DNA from: a virus
DNA length: 32,723 nucleotides
Reading direction: 5' to 3' (one strand)
Virus record (IMG/VR): IMGVR_UViG_3300010412_000053
Location: 1-32,723 of that record
The notes below the pieces were generated by a model. The model did not search any database, had not been told where the DNA came from, and was given only the letters and a program-made list of their open reading frames with translations. Both the position numbers and the translations under genes were made by a program. Position 1 is the stretch's first letter. Every line of letters starts with the position of its first letter. Shown piece by piece: positions 4,606 through 31,039 of the stretch.

Positions 4606-6390
4606 GTGACTGTAAAAAAAGTTAAAAGCCCAGCAAAACTTTATTGTTCAAGCCCTTCAGTTTTAAGAAAAATCACCTCACAAACTATGGATGAAATCTC
4701 AAATATAGTAGGTTCAAGCTATGGTCCAGGTGGTAAGACGACATTAATCGAAAGTGAATACCCTGGAATTCCTAATAAAAATACTAAAGATGGTGTCACT
4801 ATTTTTAAATCATTAGGGTCTTCTGACCCTTATAAACATTTAATTATTGAACAAACTAGAGATGCAGCACAAAGAACAGCAAGCGAAGCTGGAGATGGTA
4901 CTACTGCAACAACTATTATTTCTGCACATCTTGTTAAAAGTTTGTTTAAGTATTGTGAAGAAAATCCTAAAGAATCTCCACAAAGAGCTACAAGGATCTT
5001 GAATAATATTATAAAAAAAGAACTTATTCCTGCTGTAAAAGAAGCATCAATCAAAATCGACACAAATAATCAACATTTATTAGGCAAAGTAGCAAAAATC
5101 TCTGCTAACGGTGATGAAGATATGGCAAATGCTGTTATGGAAGCTTTTGATATGGTAGGGTTTGGGGAATCATCCCACGTTACTATTCAAGAACTTTCAG
5201 GCCCAGGGGGTTATGAGGTTGAGCTTATTGAAGGATACCCTATTGCTATAGGCTTTGAAGAATCAATTGGTAAATTTCATACAGCTTTTGTTAATGATAA
5301 AGCTAATCAAAGATGTAAATTGGATAAACCTTTGTTTCTTTTATATGATGGAATGATTAATGATCTAGTAGCCTTTTTACCTTTAATTGATTCGTTAGGA
5401 AAAAAATATGTAGAAGAAGGAAATTCAGATTTTTGTAACCTAGTGCTAGTAGCTCATGGATTTTCAGAAAACGTATTAACAACTTTAGCTTTTAACTTCT
5501 CAAACCCTACAACACTTAACGTAGTACCAATGGCTACTCCTATGACTGCTCATAAAAATTCTCGTTTAGAGTTTTTATATGATTTATCAGCATTTACAGG
5601 AGCTAAAATTTTTGATATGAATAACCAAGTATCAAAAGCTACTTTAGAGAATCTTGGAACTAATATGGATAGTTTTGAATTTTATAGATTCAGAGCTACA
5701 GTAGTAGGACAACCTGATGATTTGGATATTGATGAGAGAGCAGAACAACTTGAACAACAATTGAAAAATGCCGCTAGTATTTCAGAGAAACTTGATTTAG
5801 AAGAAAGGTTAGGAAAATTAACTAATGGTATTGCTAAATTAAAAATATACGGAGCTTCTAACGGAGAATTAAAAGAAAGACATGACAGATGTGAAGATGC
5901 TGTTTGTGCTGTAAGAAGTGCGATTAAACACGGAGCGTTGCCTGGAGGATGTAGAGTTCTTGTTAATTTAGCATTAAAATTAAATGAAGAATATATTGAA
6001 TCTCATAGAGATTACAATCTAGTTCAAACTGTTTTAATTGAAAGTTTAATGGAACCTTTAAGAAAACTACTAGACAATGCTGGATATAATTCAGAAGAAA
6101 TTCAAAAAATTATTACAGATTATTTCTTAGATACTACCAAAGTTTATGACATAGAAAATATGGAATTTGGCGATCCTGAAGAATTGGGTATTTTTGATGC
6201 TTCACAAGCTGTAATACAAGCTTTAGAAAATAGTATATCTATTGCAAGTGTTATGGGTAATCTTGGAGGAATTGTTTGTTCTCCAAGAGATAATCAATTA
6301 GAAATTCAAGCTTGGAAAGAAGATCAAGAATTCAGAAGAGCTACAGATCATGCTGATGAATTTATAAACGAAGCAGATATAAGACCATAA
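4606..6390 (+). CDS. GroEL-like chaperonin
   Basis: This is a group I-like chaperonin subunit expected to form an ATP-driven folding chamber. Conserved elements appear in GroEL order: SSYGPGGKTTLI (37-48, like VTLGPKGRNVVL), TKDGVT (60-65), EAGDGTTATT (94-103), a degenerate apical domain (about 190-370), GASNGELKERHDRCEDA (416-432), and ALPGGC (444-449, like VAGGG). The catalytic aspartates match D97 (GroEL D87) and D431 (GroEL D398), so ATP hydrolysis is probably intact. At 594 aa it is longer than E. coli GroEL (548). The GTG start has TTAGGAGT 5 nt upstream; the ATG two bases earlier would stop at once. Its own promoter sits at 4566-4574. It precedes terminase and portal, suggesting capsid proteins as clients (inference). 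Confidence 0.9.
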   Translation: MTVKKVKSPAKLYCSSPSVLRKITSQTMDEISNIVGSSYGPGGKTTLIESEYPGIPNKNTKDGVTIFKSLGSSDPYKHLIIEQTRDAAQRTASEAGDGTTATTIISAHLVKSLFKYCEENPKESPQRATRILNNIIKKELIPAVKEASIKIDTNNQHLLGKVAKISANGDEDMANAVMEAFDMVGFGESSHVTIQELSGPGGYEVELIEGYPIAIGFEESIGKFHTAFVNDKANQRCKLDKPLFLLYDGMINDLVAFLPLIDSLGKKYVEEGNSDFCNLVLVAHGFSENVLTTLAFNFSNPTTLNVVPMATPMTAHKNSRLEFLYDLSAFTGAKIFDMNNQVSKATLENLGTNMDSFEFYRFRATVVGQPDDLDIDERAEQLEQQLKNAASISEKLDLEERLGKLTNGIAKLKIYGASNGELKERHDRCEDAVCAVRSAIKHGALPGGCRVLVNLALKLNEEYIESHRDYNLVQTVLIESLMEPLRKLLDNAGYNSEEIQKIITDYFLDTTKVYDIENMEFGDPEELGIFDASQAVIQALENSISIASVMGNLGGIVCSPRDNQLEIQAWKEDQEFRRATDHADEFINEADIRP

Positions 6391-15211: not shown

Positions 15212-15531
15212 GCAAAATTTCACTTAATGGTAATTTAATTTTAAAACCCTACCTGAAAAGTAGAGAACTAAGAGCTACAGAGGTTGCTACAGGTTTTACA
15301 ATGACAGCTAATAAAATAGGTATTGAAGCATTGGAACTTTTAGTTGACACAACTATTGTTGTAGGACAAAATCCATTATATCTTGAAAAAGGTACTAAAA
15401 TCTTTTTTAAAGAAGAAACATTACATAATCAAAAATGGCCTAGAACTATTTTTGAATCAGAAATTTTCCCAGAAGGTTTTGTAATAGGGTCTGTTTCTGA
15501 TGTTTTATTTATTGACCAAAAAGAGGGCTAA
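15208..15531 (+). CDS. Candidate GroES-like co-chaperonin
   Basis: This is possibly the lid partner for the phage GroEL-like chaperonin. The 107-residue length is close to GroES (97) and T4 gp31 (111). Its pattern follows GroES: an opening strand NGNLILKP (7-14), a mobile-loop-sized segment with TGFTMT (28-33, like GGIVLT), ALELLVDTTIVVGQN (41-55, like RGEVLAVGNG), LEKGTKIFFKEE (59-70, like KVGDIVIFND), and an end EGFVIGSVSDVLFID (89-103, like EEVLIMSESDILAIV). The ATG overlaps the sigma gene stop, with AAAGGAG upstream, so translation is coupled. Overall identity is low, so another small beta-barrel protein remains possible. A structure prediction would settle it. Confidence 0.55.
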   Translation: MSKISLNGNLILKPYLKSRELRATEVATGFTMTANKIGIEALELLVDTTIVVGQNPLYLEKGTKIFFKEETLHNQKWPRTIFESEIFPEGFVIGSVSDVLFIDQKEG

Positions 15532-16502
15532 TGTACAAAGTTTTAGTAGTAGGAGATCCGCATGTTCAAGTTTCAAATCTGAAAGATTCAGAGAAACTGA
15601 TGGATTTTATTATAAAAACTGCTAAAGAAAAAGAAGTACATTCTATAGTATTTTTAGGTGATCTATTTCATACTCATGCTGTTAAAAGAACGGAAGTGGA
15701 AGATTTCTGGTCTAGAGCTTTTAATTTAATTGAAAAAGAAGACATTAGGTGTAATGTTTTGGTTGGAAATCACGATCAAGTCGGATCTAAAGAAAAAGAA
15801 CAATTAATTAATTCTTTAAATGTGTTTGGGGATACAGGTTTAAGAACTATTATAAACAAACCTGTAATATTATATAATATAGCATATATTCCCTATCATA
15901 GTAATCATAATGATTTTTTAAAAGCAGCTCAGGACTTATATAATGATGGAGCTACTGAATTATTAATTGCTCATCAAACTTTTACAGGTGCTCAATACGA
16001 AAATGGTTTTTTTAGCGAAGAAGGTATTGATCCTGAATTAATACCACAAAAACAAATACTTAGCGGTCACATCCACAAAAGCCAGCAAGTAGGGAAATGT
16101 TTTTATCCAGGAACTCCTAAATGGGATACTATGGCAGATGCAAATCAAGAAAAAGGCATCTGGATTTTTAGTCACACAACCGATGGCCAATACGTTGACA
16201 AAGAATTCATTTCAACAGATAATATAGTAACACCTATTACAAGTTATGAAATTAAAGAAGGTGATATTGTTCCTGTTATTAATCCTTCGGCTAGAAACTA
16301 TATTACTTTAGAAGGAAAAACAGTCTGGATCAATAAAATGAAAAAAGAATTTAAAAATTGTAACATTAAAATAAAACCTACAGATAAAAGTATCAGTAAA
16401 ATAAATACAAGTTCTACAATTGATAAATACTTAGAAAACGAATTTGAACCTATTGCCTCTGTATCTAAAGAAGAACTGAAGGAATTTTTAAGAAATATAT
16501 GA
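15531..16502 (+). CDS. SbcD/gp47/Mre11-like recombination nuclease
   Basis: This is the metallophosphoesterase subunit of an SbcCD-type nuclease that processes DNA ends for recombination-dependent replication. Metal-binding motifs appear in order: GDPH (D9, H11), LGDLFH (D44), VGNHDQ (N80, H81), AHQTF (H148) and SGHIHKS (H180, H182). At 323 residues it is close to T4 gp47 (339). It overlaps the stop of the GroES-like gene (TAATG) and runs by ATGA into the next gene. Its ATPase partner is encoded at 18800-20848, five genes further on. The family call is firm. Confidence 0.88.
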   Translation: MYKVLVVGDPHVQVSNLKDSEKLMDFIIKTAKEKEVHSIVFLGDLFHTHAVKRTEVEDFWSRAFNLIEKEDIRCNVLVGNHDQVGSKEKEQLINSLNVFGDTGLRTIINKPVILYNIAYIPYHSNHNDFLKAAQDLYNDGATELLIAHQTFTGAQYENGFFSEEGIDPELIPQKQILSGHIHKSQQVGKCFYPGTPKWDTMADANQEKGIWIFSHTTDGQYVDKEFISTDNIVTPITSYEIKEGDIVPVINPSARNYITLEGKTVWINKMKKEFKNCNIKIKPTDKSISKINTSSTIDKYLENEFEPIASVSKEELKEFLRNI

Positions 16503-17497: not shown

Positions 17498-17502
17498 ATT
17501 TG

Positions 17503-17511
17503 TGATATTAT
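17503..17511 (+). promoter_or_regulatory. Extended -10 promoter TGATATTAT (copy 5)
   Basis: TG-A-TATTAT lies 38 nt before the protease ATG. The expected start near 17518 gives a 31-nt leader with AAAGGAG just before ATG 17549. The -35 position lacks a match to TTGACA. Confidence 0.75.
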
Positions 17512-17548
17512 AATATTACAAGAATATTTTCTCAACAAAGGAGATCGA

Positions 17549-18508
17549 ATGAGAATTATTTTATTATTAGCTATTTTCTTGAATCTCACGCTGTCAACAG
17601 CTAAGGCAGCTCAAAAAGAGATTATCTTAACAAAAGACAATATCGCCACACTGACTGATGTTGTTACTGACGAGTCAGTTTCTAAATTAATCGGTGAAAT
17701 CAGAAGAATGGATTCACAACTTCCAAGCGGATACCCTATCTACTTATTCTTATCTACTCCTGGTGGAAGTATTCAGGCAGGTCTTGAATTAATCGAATTT
17801 ACAAAAGGTGTAAACAGACCTATTCATACTGTTACTCTTTTTGCAGCATCTATGGGATTTCAGATTGCTCAAAATTTAGGTGATAGATACATCCTTCAAT
17901 ATGGTGTATTAATGAGTCACAAAGCTTCAGGTGGATTTGATGGGGAATTCGGTGGAGAAGCAAGTCAATTAGATTCTAGGTACGGCTTATGGCTTCGTAG
18001 ATTAAAAGAAATGGATACAAAAACTGTAGAAAGAACTAACGGCAAAAAGACATTAAAACAATACCAATCAGAGTACGACAATGAACTTTGGTTAAATGGT
18101 AAAGAAGCTGTTGAAAATGGGTATGCTGATGAGGTTGTTACAGTTAGATGTTCTTCTGATTTAAGCGGAGAAAGAGTTGAAAACGTATTTTCTACGGGTA
18201 TGAGTTTGATTGTTACTTTTGATGCTTGTCCTTTAAGAACTGCTCCTATTTCTGTTACAGCACAAGTTAGAACAAATAAAGGTCTTATGTCTTTAAATGA
18301 TTTTGTTGCTAAAGGTGGTAGTTTTCAAGGTAAAACACATAATACTTGGGATAGTTCAAATTCTTCTCAAAAAGATGAGTTATATTCTTTAGAAGAAAAC
18401 TTATCTGTTGCTTCTATTGAAAAAGCTGTTAGAGATTATAAGAACAATGTGTTGAATAAAAAGAAAAATATTGTTAAAATGAGTTTTAAGAACTTTGTAA
18501 CGGAATAA
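17549..18508 (+). CDS. ClpP-like serine protease with a signal peptide
   Basis: This appears to be a ClpP-fold serine protease that is exported. Residues 1-20 form a signal peptide: basic start, hydrophobic IILLLAIFLNLTL, and AKA before AQKE as cleavage site. The ClpP-type fold follows: FLSTPGGSIQAG (67-78, oxyanion region), nucleophile Ser101 in FAASMG, and His124 in LMSHKASGG. At the position of the catalytic Asp, before WLNGKEAVENGYADEV, the sequence has Glu179. About 120 extra C-terminal residues have no recognised domain. It has its own promoter and ribosome binding site. Possible roles include envelope or lysis functions, or virion maturation if the leader is not cleaved. ClpP normally works with a cytoplasmic ATPase, which makes export odd. 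Confidence 0.78.
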   Translation: MRIILLLAIFLNLTLSTAKAAQKEIILTKDNIATLTDVVTDESVSKLIGEIRRMDSQLPSGYPIYLFLSTPGGSIQAGLELIEFTKGVNRPIHTVTLFAASMGFQIAQNLGDRYILQYGVLMSHKASGGFDGEFGGEASQLDSRYGLWLRRLKEMDTKTVERTNGKKTLKQYQSEYDNELWLNGKEAVENGYADEVVTVRCSSDLSGERVENVFSTGMSLIVTFDACPLRTAPISVTAQVRTNKGLMSLNDFVAKGGSFQGKTHNTWDSSNSSQKDELYSLEENLSVASIEKAVRDYKNNVLNKKKNIVKMSFKNFVTE

Positions 18509-18510
18509 TA

Positions 18511-18786
18511 ATGCCAAGAATATTGTATATCTGTAATAAATGTAGAAAAGAAAATAAAAGATTTTTTAAGTCTAGCATAGAAATACAAAACAAATTAGAA
18601 TGTAATTGTGGTGGAGAGCTTGAAAGACAACTCTCTTCCCCTTCTCAAAGAAGTAAAATGGTAATAGACAACGGCGTACAGGCAAAAGCTGTTGAATTAG
18701 ATAGAGAGATTGTCGAAATCATTGAAGATAGAGAAAAATCTCAATTAAAAAAACGTGGTGACTCTGTAATTGAAAATCTAAAGTAA
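18511..18786 (+). CDS. Small zinc-ribbon protein
   Basis: The 91-residue protein has an N-terminal zinc-ribbon-like motif: CNKC (8-11) and CNC (about 31-33), with the spacing of FmdB-type ribbons. The rest is a charged, probably helical tail. It starts 2 nt after the protease stop and ends 13 nt before the SbcC-like gene. No strong ribosome binding site is visible, so coupling to the protease gene is likely. It may bind DNA or a protein partner; this cannot be told from sequence. Confidence 0.65.
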   Translation: MPRILYICNKCRKENKRFFKSSIEIQNKLECNCGGELERQLSSPSQRSKMVIDNGVQAKAVELDREIVEIIEDREKSQLKKRGDSVIENLK

Positions 18787-18799
18787 ACGGAATTATTAG

Positions 18800-20848
18800 A
18801 TGCTTAATTTAAAAAAATACTCTTTTTCTGGAATAGGACGTTTTGCAGAAAAACAGACAATAGATTTAGAATCAAGATCCCATCTAATTCAAATAGATGG
18901 TCAAAATATGAATACAGGAGGTTCTTCTGGTGCAGGAAAATCAACTACAGTAGAAGCTCTAGCCTTTCTTTTAGGGATTAGCGAAATCCCAGCAACTCAA
19001 CTACAATCAAGAATAACAGACGATCCAATATGGGTACAAGGTGAATTTGAAGGTGGTATCACAATAACACGATCAAAAAAAGACGGATTAGTTATTGAAA
19101 CACCTGAAGAAACAGTATCAGGTAATAGTAAATTAGCAGAAGAAAAATTGGATGAAATCATTGGGGTAAATAGAGATTTACTGAAAACAATGTGCTATAA
19201 GAGACAAAAACAGGGAGGGTTCTTTTTAAACCTAACTCCTAAACAATCTTATGACTTCCTAACACAATGTCTTGATTTAAAAGAATATCAAGCTAAAATT
19301 AATACCTTAGAAGATTTGTTAAAAACAAAATACAAGCCAAGAAAGATAGAACTGGAAAGTAGTTCAAAAACTCTTACAGACAGTATTTCTCAGCTAAAAA
19401 TATTGCTAGAACAGAAAATTAAACCTTCCCCAATCGAAACAGAAGATTCAACATCTGTAGAGTTAGCATTAAATGTTTTGAAACAAAAACAAGAAGGAAT
19501 AAAAAAACAATATGAATCAAGCACAGAAGAACTAGGTAAAAAACCTACAATGTCTCAAGAGGTTTTTTTTGACAAAGAAATCGAGCTAAATACTATTAAC
19601 GAAGAAATAGTTAAAACAAATATAACAATAAATAGAAATATAGTAAATAAAGGGATTGAAATTGAACAAGCCCTTTCAGCAATTAATAAAATTAGAGAAA
19701 AAATAAACGAAACTAATACTCTAAAGAACAGGATGGTAGAGATTGATAAAGAAGCTATAGAATTAGAAAAACAAAGAGATCACCTATCTCAAGGGAATTG
19801 TCCTACTTGTTTAAGGGAGTGGAATACAGAATCTACTCAACAAAAAATAGAAGCTCTTACATTGCAAATAAATGAAAAGAAAAATACGGTACAATCTTAT
19901 ATTAAAGAAGTAGAAAAAATACCTCATTATAAGATGATGGAATCTAAGGCGTTAGAATTATTAGAACAAAAGAAAAATCTAAAGATAAATGTTTTGGAAG
20001 AGAAAGATCTTGAAGATTTAAAGGAAAAACAAAGAGTTCTTTTAAATGAAAAAGAAAATATCAATTCTGTTGAAAAACAAAAATATTTAGAAAAATTAAA
20101 CGAATGGAATCAAAAAAACTCACAAATATTAGAAATTTACAATTCTAACAAATCAAAAATTGATGAGCAATTTGTTATGCTTAATCGTCAATTAGATAAG
20201 ATTAAAAACGACAAAATTAACTACGAAAATGCTTTAAAAACTTATGAAACAGACTGTAAAAATATTCAAGATAAAATTAACTTAAACACAACAGAACTGT
20301 CTTTTCAATTAGAAGAATTAAATAAAATACAAAAAAATACTATTTTATCTGAAGAATCTATAAGATTAATTAAAAATTTTACCTTACAAAAATTCCAAGA
20401 CACTTTAGAATACATAGGACAAAGAGCTACCGAAATCATAAACATGATACCTAATATGTCAAATGCTGTTATTTATTTTGAAAACAGTAAGGAAACTAAG
20501 TCAGGAAATATAAAAAATGAAGTAAATGCCATTATTAATTTGGAGGGTGATAGTTCAGTCCCTATTAAAACGCTTTCGGGTGGAGAAAGAACTTCAGCAG
20601 ATTTTGCTATAGATTTAGCTGTAGGAGAAATGATTGAAAATATGACTCAAAAAGGTGTTAATTTCTTTATAATTGACGAAGGATTTGATGGATTGGATTC
20701 TGTATCAAAAATTGAATGTTTAGAAATTTTAAAGAACTTAAACACAGACAAAAAAATACTCATGGTAGATCATTCTTCTGAGGTTAAAGAAATGTTACAT
20801 GATACTATAATTGTAAAGAGAGTAGGGGAGAAAAGTTTTATACAATGA
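18800..20848 (+). CDS. SbcC/gp46/Rad50-like SMC-type ATPase
   Basis: This is the ATPase subunit that pairs with the SbcD-like nuclease to process DNA ends. Of 682 residues, the N-terminal ABC half has Walker A GSSGAGKST near residues 41-49. Two long coiled-coil arms flank a zinc hook CPTC at C334-C337. The C-terminal half has the ABC signature KTLSGGERTS (about 590-600) and Walker B FFIIDEGFDGLD (about 618-629). It is longer than T4 gp46 (560), mainly through the coiled coil. It overlaps the next gene by ATGA. Domain order and motifs are complete, so it should be functional. Confidence 0.92.
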   Translation: MLNLKKYSFSGIGRFAEKQTIDLESRSHLIQIDGQNMNTGGSSGAGKSTTVEALAFLLGISEIPATQLQSRITDDPIWVQGEFEGGITITRSKKDGLVIETPEETVSGNSKLAEEKLDEIIGVNRDLLKTMCYKRQKQGGFFLNLTPKQSYDFLTQCLDLKEYQAKINTLEDLLKTKYKPRKIELESSSKTLTDSISQLKILLEQKIKPSPIETEDSTSVELALNVLKQKQEGIKKQYESSTEELGKKPTMSQEVFFDKEIELNTINEEIVKTNITINRNIVNKGIEIEQALSAINKIREKINETNTLKNRMVEIDKEAIELEKQRDHLSQGNCPTCLREWNTESTQQKIEALTLQINEKKNTVQSYIKEVEKIPHYKMMESKALELLEQKKNLKINVLEEKDLEDLKEKQRVLLNEKENINSVEKQKYLEKLNEWNQKNSQILEIYNSNKSKIDEQFVMLNRQLDKIKNDKINYENALKTYETDCKNIQDKINLNTTELSFQLEELNKIQKNTILSEESIRLIKNFTLQKFQDTLEYIGQRATEIINMIPNMSNAVIYFENSKETKSGNIKNEVNAIINLEGDSSVPIKTLSGGERTSADFAIDLAVGEMIENMTQKGVNFFIIDEGFDGLDSVSKIECLEILKNLNTDKKILMVDHSSEVKEMLHDTIIVKRVGEKSFIQ

Positions 20849-29916: not shown

Positions 29917-30333
29917 ATGATTTTGATGAGCGAACTATTAAAAGGTAAAAAATTAGAAGATCTTTCAGAAGAAATTCAAACAAACTTAAATAAACTTTTA
30001 CCTATTATTAACAATGTTAGAACTTTATACGGACACCCTATGACTGTATCTTCTTGTGTTCGTACAATGGACGAACATCTTGCTATATACGCAAAAAAAG
30101 GTATCACGGATAAATCTAAAATACCTATGAAATCAAAACATTTGTACGGCCTAGCTGTAGATATTTACGATCCTAATAAAGAATTACAAAAATGGTGTTT
30201 ATCCAACGAGCAGACTCTTAAAGAGATAGGGGTCTGGATGGAATCGTTTGACGCAACACCTAATTGGGTTCATTTTCAAATAGTTCCTTACGGCTCTTAT
30301 CAAGAAGGCAAATCGCTCTGGTTTAAGCCTTAA
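29917..30333 (+). CDS. M15-family peptidase, probable endolysin
   Basis: This is a zinc peptidase expected to cut peptidoglycan peptide cross-links during lysis. The M15 zinc site is complete: SKHLYGLAVD (73-82; S-x-H-x-x-G-x-A-x-D with H75 and D82) and WVHFQ (117-121; H119). It also has SSCVRTMDEHLAIY, typical for this family. At 138 residues it is a single catalytic domain with no wall-binding part and no signal peptide, so release would need a holin; none is clear in the window. The start could be ATG 29917 or ATG 29926; neither has a strong ribosome binding site. A terminator overlaps its stop codon. Confidence 0.85.
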   Translation: MILMSELLKGKKLEDLSEEIQTNLNKLLPIINNVRTLYGHPMTVSSCVRTMDEHLAIYAKKGITDKSKIPMKSKHLYGLAVDIYDPNKELQKWCLSNEQTLKEIGVWMESFDATPNWVHFQIVPYGSYQEGKSLWFKP

Positions 30334-30400: not shown

Positions 30401-31039
30401 ATTAATTATTTATGCTTCGACATCGAGACTGGTGGGTTAGACAAAAAGAAACACACAATTACTGAAGCGTATTTTGGAATATGGAATAGTGATTGGGTTT
30501 TGCTAGATGAGCTTCATGTATATATGAAACATGATAACGGAACAATTGTTGGAGAACCTGAAGCTTTCAAAATAACAGGAATTGATCCTGTTGTATTGTT
30601 AGATAGTCCAGACACTCTTACTTATTCTGAAGCCAGAGAAAAGCTTTTGTCAATGTTAGAAAAACATAAAATCCCAGGAAAAAGATCCCACTATAAATAC
30701 TTAGGACAAAATATAGTAGCTTTTGATATTCCTTTTATGCAAGAGCAAGGTTTTTTTACAGAAACTCATGCAAAAAAAGCAGGAATACACCATAATGCAA
30801 TTGATACCACTCAAATAGTAACTTGGCTTAAAGATATAGATGTATTACCTTCCAATGTAGGGAATTTAGGAAGTTTAGTAGAATATTTCGGTCTTCCTAA
30901 GGGTATTGCTCATAGAGCAAAAGATGATGTTCACATGCAAAAAGAAGTATATATAAAATTATGTGAATTATTCAAGAAAAACTCATTAAACAATTTAGGT
31001 ATGTCAGATAACGATCTATTAAAGATTGTGGAGCTTTAG
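30401..31039 (+). CDS. DnaQ-like 3'-5' proofreading exonuclease with ATT start
   Basis: This is a DEDDh exonuclease likely to proofread for the polymerase encoded next. Counted from ATT 30401 it has 212 residues: Exo I FDIETGGLD (about 6-14), Exo II NIVAFDIPFM (near 103-112), and Exo III HRAKDDVHMQ (near 173-182). The in-frame region from the stop at 30362-30364 to TTG 30500 holds no ATG, GTG or TTG, and starting at TTG would delete the essential DxE motif. ATT 30401 has AAGGAG 6 nt upstream, so ATT appears to be the real start codon. It overlaps the polymerase gene by one base. Confidence 0.85.
   Translation: MNYLCFDIETGGLDKKKHTITEAYFGIWNSDWVLLDELHVYMKHDNGTIVGEPEAFKITGIDPVVLLDSPDTLTYSEAREKLLSMLEKHKIPGKRSHYKYLGQNIVAFDIPFMQEQGFFTETHAKKAGIHHNAIDTTQIVTWLKDIDVLPSNVGNLGSLVEYFGLPKGIAHRAKDDVHMQKEVYIKLCELFKKNSLNNLGMSDNDLLKIVEL

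Follow-up and report, generated by a model that had tools for sequence, protein, structure and literature searches.

The secClpP gene and its neighbourhood

The gene described here lies on a 32.7 kb contig of an uncultured virus; this whole stretch of DNA (32,723 nucleotides) is referred to as the window. The encoded protein, secClpP, is a serine protease of the ClpP fold with a predicted export signal (Table 1). Its match to the Pfam family CLP_protease (PF00574) covers residues 27-198 (E 1.3e-16, 61.4 bits, cut-off 20.2). In the AlphaFold (AF2) monomer model (mean pLDDT 86), residues 26-200 align with ClpP crystal structures (Z 22.7, rmsd 2.4 Å, 168 residues). The initial annotation of a ClpP-like protease with an extra C-terminal domain is thus borne out by both profile and predicted structure, the extra domain being formed by residues 201-319, beyond the ClpP domain. 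Three further profiles score below their cut-offs, namely the NCBIfam clpP equivalog TIGR00493 (51.4 bits, cut-off 308.6), NF045542 Clp_rel_HeadMat (39.2 bits, cut-off 120) and NfeD1b_N (E 0.094, 12.7 bits, cut-off 40). Among the PHROGs, phrog_94 (annotated as head maturation protease) matches best, at 4.1e-13.

Table 1. Positions in the window of secClpP, its parts, its putative expression signals and its neighbours
Feature	Positions	Strand	Remarks
secClpP, ClpP-fold serine protease, predicted exported	17549..18508	+	319 aa, ATG start
Predicted Sec signal peptide, residues 1-20	17549..17608	+	cleavage between AKA and AQ; hydropathy, A-X-A rule
ClpP-fold domain, residues 27-198	17627..18142	+	PF00574 match; ClpP crystals Z 22.7
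Catalytic Ser101 (E. coli ClpP Ser97)	17849..17851	+	invariant 63/63
Catalytic His124 (E. coli ClpP His122)	17918..17920	+	invariant 63/63
Glu179, at the ClpP Asp171 position	18083..18085	+	relatives: Glu 59/61, Asp 2/61
C-terminal extension, residues 201-319	18149..18505	+	beta strands, variable middle, long helix (AF2 models)
Cys201, candidate disulfide partner	18149..18151	+	invariant 61/61
Cys227, candidate disulfide partner	18227..18229	+	invariant 62/62; followed by invariant Pro228
Ribosome-binding site AAAGGAG	17537..17543	+	common to close relatives
TGTGATATTATA, candidate extended -10 promoter	17501..17512	+	recurs in close relatives' intergenic gap
Upstream neighbour, 212 aa	16848..17486	+	order conserved
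Downstream neighbour, 91 aa, FmdB-like zinc ribbon	18511..18786	+	TIGR02605 3e-5, below cut-off; order conserved
SbcD-like nuclease subunit	15531..16502	+	same conserved cluster
SbcC-like nuclease subunit	18800..20848	+	same conserved cluster

A strong ribosome-binding site and a promoter of its own had been ascribed to the gene. The former is present and conserved in close relatives. The promoter can be retained in part: the candidate element recurs in the non-coding gap of close relatives, but a consensus promoter scan returned sites no more often than in shuffled sequences, and no + strand site immediately before the gene.

The order helicase, 364 aa, 107 aa, SbcD, 124 aa, 212 aa, secClpP, zinc ribbon, SbcC is largely kept at about 20 loci, all of them from the window's own lineage. 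The neighbourhood is a replication/recombination cluster, with neither lysis nor head genes, which suggests early or middle expression. The homologue of the 212-aa upstream gene in the cultured relative Mx1 directly precedes the gene of the terminase large subunit, and from this position the upstream gene may encode the small terminase subunit. Elsewhere in the window (4606-6390), a divergent phage GroEL gene is found directly before the terminase gene; its nearest cultured match is that of Mx1 (41%).

Active site and selection

Residue counts were taken from an alignment of 63 proteins with a readable N-terminus. The retention of the catalytic Ser and His, as initially described, is confirmed by the alignment to E. 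coli ClpP, and neither residue varies among the relatives. The canonical Ser-His-Asp triad is absent, since the acid is a Glu in nearly all family members. The proposed replacement of Asp by Glu is therefore real, and it is the norm rather than a peculiarity of the window. Among 61 relatives this position holds either Glu (59) or Asp (2), which lends weight to the alignment and to an acid being required here. Variation is also almost absent at Trp181 and at the Ala-Asp pair 193-194. The Ser-Lys dyad of NfeD/1510 and SppA is likewise absent, the base position being occupied by the invariant His.

Over the whole gene, dN/dS amounts to about 0.08 for the pair L031-L035 (dN 0.133, dS 1.69), and the identity of secClpP in the nearest related phages is about 55-63%. 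To judge by the sequences, secClpP is a maintained enzyme and no decayed copy, because the catalytic Ser, His and acid are conserved at this low dN/dS; the identity kept in the nearest phages, together with the same ratio, is far from chance.

Export signal

The leader, MRIILLLAIFLNLTLSTAKA followed by AQ, displays the n-region charge, hydrophobic core and A-X-A site of a Sec signal. Its 12-residue hydropathy maximum reaches 2.74. Of the 29 other window proteins scored, none goes beyond 1.69, and the maxima of related phages' cytoplasmic ClpPs are 1.03 or less. An N-terminal hydrophobic export segment (12-residue hydropathy of at least 2.0) is present in 63/63 aligned relatives, so that the cleavable signal peptide read from the leader at first sight stands as a well-founded prediction. 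A cleavage site of the A-X-A type can be recognized in 48 of the 63, and a lipobox-like motif in 2. The flanking charge is compatible with an outward-facing domain in 56/63 relatives and does not favour one in the other 7, mostly from an anchored group. In this subclade a linker of about 40 residues comes after the hydrophobic segment, often without a cleavage site, as in membrane anchors. For some members the charge rule speaks neither way or against this orientation, and their topology is less certain.

The suggested location in the envelope or periplasm agrees with the export signal or anchor in every relative and with the two invariant cysteines of the extension. That the compartment would be a periplasm is weakly indicated by the host of Myxococcus phage Mx1, a diderm, and by the MAG bins, which come from two-membrane groups. 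Taken together, it is very probable that secClpP is exported and carries a functional active site.

A second apparently exported peptidase was observed in a related record (L014; G003 30485-31030, reverse strand). The beginning of this 181-aa protein resembles a signal or a lipobox, and a phage metallopeptidase is matched weakly (0.0038).

Apparent loss of the axial loop and gain of a C-terminal extension

ClpP is the cytoplasmic chamber of ATP-driven proteases, and its axial N-terminal loop is required by ClpX and ClpA. In the short-leader members of the secClpP family, the predicted cleavage site is separated by few residues, or none, from the equivalent of E. coli ClpP residue 18 in the alignment, and for this reason the loop appears to be gone from their mature forms. 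The ClpX-docking groove is uninformative, since apart from the retained Tyr60 its residues vary in both groups.

At the other end, the family carries an extension of about 75-140 residues beyond the ClpP domain (about 120 in the window). Its Cys201 and Cys227 are the only cysteines of the window secClpP, and a putative disulfide between them would fit an oxidising compartment. When compared alone to the PDB with Foldseek, the extension gave no match at E <= 0.001, which is no proof of a new fold. Two structural matches in BFVD reach into it: A0A6J5KYR7 from an uncultured Caudovirales phage (39% identity) and, over 237 columns, A0A7D3V576 from Fadolivirus, a giant virus of protists (26% identity). 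Both are annotated only as Clp protease subunit.

Distribution and phylogeny

Fragment scans of the viral collection located relatives on about 65 further contigs of up to 177 kb, and about 70 contigs are known altogether. Carriers outside the window's lineage share only secClpP with it; the gene has therefore moved or been inherited across lineages. No full-length match was found in cultured phages, where all matches to the window secClpP cover less than 80%, and three other members used as queries yielded no cultured carrier at E <= 1e-10.

A host-derived gene was considered and rejected. A genome scan over 84,980 species gave three hits, each a metagenome-assembled bacterial genome with its secClpP copy on a contig with phage genes; the scan used short peptide patterns, which divergent chromosomal relatives could escape. 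Two bacterial phyla, represented by 58 and 395 genomes, contained no copy except in the hit MAG. Bacteria also have a periplasmic ClpP-like family, COG3904.

In the tree, the exported proteins form one clade, long-stemmed and with 100/100 support, which includes neither ClpP nor the second ClpPs of the phages. A separation from ClpP, as the initial annotation had left to phylogeny, is thereby established.

Comparison with cytoplasmic ClpPs

secClpP resembles E. coli ClpP (MEROPS S14) in the fold of residues 26-200 and in the Ser and His of the triad, at about 25% identity. Unlike the E. coli enzyme, it is predicted to be exported, has Glu in place of Asp171 and a replaced Arg170, and would be left without the axial loop after signal cleavage. 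The extension, with its two invariant cysteines, and the separate clade further distinguish the two.

A second ClpP-family gene was found in 13/17 records searched, and those that were read have the normal Asp and no export signal. These second copies, the Clp-like protein of Mx1 (WNM70285) and the ClpPs of PA5oct and Atu_ph07 are phage-borne members of the same Pfam family, but differ from secClpP by the absence of an export signal and of an extension, by the canonical Asp and by their different clade. The genomes of cytoplasmic phage ClpPs sometimes hold a ClpX-like AAA+ gene as well. Such a gene is also present in two of the lineages studied here. In L043 (7594-8520) a ClpX-like AAA+ gene lies about 1.1 kb downstream of secClpP. 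A ClpP serine protease has been described in some jumbo phages as a probable host-directed protease (Iyer et al., PMC7824862), and several Clp proteins are encoded by Atu_ph07 (PMC6102473). Full-text literature searches found no report of an exported phage ClpP.

Two intein-like arrangements were seen along the way. The second, cytoplasmic ClpP of L060 (G014, reverse strand, ~640-1965) appears to contain an intein-like insert, in which Cys and His-Asn-Cys splice motifs can be recognized. In L017 (G003 100466-104172, reverse strand), two overlapping ORFs share the terminase large subunit between them, and the second starts like an intein end (NHNYFANGILTHN); the Mx1 terminase matches both halves.

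Alternative functions

The envelope proteases NfeD/1510 and SppA share with secClpP a related fold of the same clan, the predicted envelope location and the proposed independence from ATP. An exported or anchored enzyme that works like SppA or NfeD/1510 (stomatin protease) would cleave signal peptides or membrane peptides; by trimming membrane segments it would benefit export or quality control of the envelope in the infected cell, and the membrane-anchored versions in one subclade would suit such a role. NfeD/1510 and SppA, however, employ a Ser-Lys dyad, as opposed to the Ser-His-Glu of secClpP with its invariant His as base. The NfeD1b_N match is far under the cut-off, and ClpP provides the top structural and profile matches. 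The resemblance to NfeD/1510 raised by the initial annotation is consequently not upheld, and this function is unlikely.

Even less likely is an accessory role in lysis, where late digestion of envelope proteins would help release. The envelope location would allow it, but an endolysin candidate (29917-30333) is 11 kb away, and secClpP shares its cluster with SbcC/SbcD and helicases. As this cluster serves replication/recombination, the lysis role proposed at the outset has no positional support.

secClpP could also be packaged in the virion and act on the envelope at entry, as many envelope-active enzymes of phages travel in this way. Cleavable Sec signals point instead to a protein that the infected cell exports, and the gene lies outside the structural cluster, which leaves this option very improbable.

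The weakest alternative is a prohead (head maturation) protease with an incidental hydrophobic stretch as leader, an identity that the initial annotation had itself set against its proposal. Many S14-like phage proteases are prohead proteases, phrog_94 is the top PHROGs match, and the ClpP-type prohead proteases (phrog_94, NF045542) share the fold and a weak profile match with secClpP. They sit in head modules, however, and the relatives of secClpP use another head protease. Searches with Pfam S77 and S78 returned nothing for the window and the three relatives nearest to it, and the putative prohead protease of Mx1 was therefore taken as query. Mx1 (identity to window proteins: GroEL 41%, portal 46%, sheath 42%, terminase 28%) encodes a capsid protein, this protease and a cytoplasmic Clp-like protein, and builds its heads without any secClpP. 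Seven secClpP-bearing relatives possess the Mx1-type capsid protein (52-55% identity) and a homologue of the Mx1 prohead protease, in most of them a few kb at most from the capsid gene; in long contigs secClpP is tens of kb from this homologue. The unrelated L040 lineage has both a head maturation protease of phrog_1028 (1e-38) and a cytoplasmic ClpP, each less than 2 kb from secClpP. The window's own head protease region falls outside the fragment. With separate head proteases in the relatives, and an export signal ill-suited to a capsid-internal protease, this identity was rejected as extremely improbable.

Among the structural genes of one record (L018; G003 119150-121309, reverse strand), a 719-residue ORF matches mCpol, the minimal CRISPR polymerase (PF18182, 5e-19), as well as DUF5661, and is in part similar to an uncharacterized Mx1 protein.

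Proposed mechanism and meaning

The reading favoured here, and considered probable, is that secClpP is an exported, ATP-independent ClpP-type serine protease of the host envelope during infection. As at least 60 uncultured viruses encode the exported form, and the cutting residues persist in each of them, it probably works on the host envelope. Fold, export signal, conserved triad, loop loss and selection are supported at the level of sequence; for the oligomer, disulfide, activity, substrate and role of secClpP we infer the following scheme. A large tailed phage would express secClpP from its replication/recombination cluster, and the Sec signal peptide would take the protein across the inner membrane. 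In other members, an uncleaved anchor or lipobox seems to keep it in the membrane. The Ser-His-Glu triad would then cleave in the host envelope, presumably without an unfoldase, because the axial loop for ClpX/ClpA docking would be missing after signal cleavage and no ATP is available outside the membrane. Peptides, loose termini or unfolded proteins would be the substrates; the window itself points to no particular target. Probably stabilized by a disulfide, the extension may stand in for the gate or help to choose the substrates.

The most likely benefit would be envelope remodelling, i.e., the removal or trimming of host envelope proteins or receptors, or the clearing of mis-exported proteins. 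This role is plausible, yet held with somewhat less than even confidence; superinfection exclusion and host takeover may be further benefits. More tentative still is the wider proposal of a phage-specific ClpP lineage that has left the AAA+ system. Exported to the envelope and independent of ATP, it would rely on a Ser-His-Glu triad, its extension fixed by a disulfide. Phages would keep it besides an ordinary cytoplasmic ClpP of their own and use it to alter the host surface; the destruction of receptors against superinfection is one example.

For the secClpP clade, automatic labels such as 'head maturation protease' or 'ATP-dependent Clp protease' are misleading. If the proposed function is true, secClpP shows the ClpP fold working alone, exported, with its docking loop dropped and its acid swapped, and points to an envelope-directed proteolytic step in the infection by large phages.
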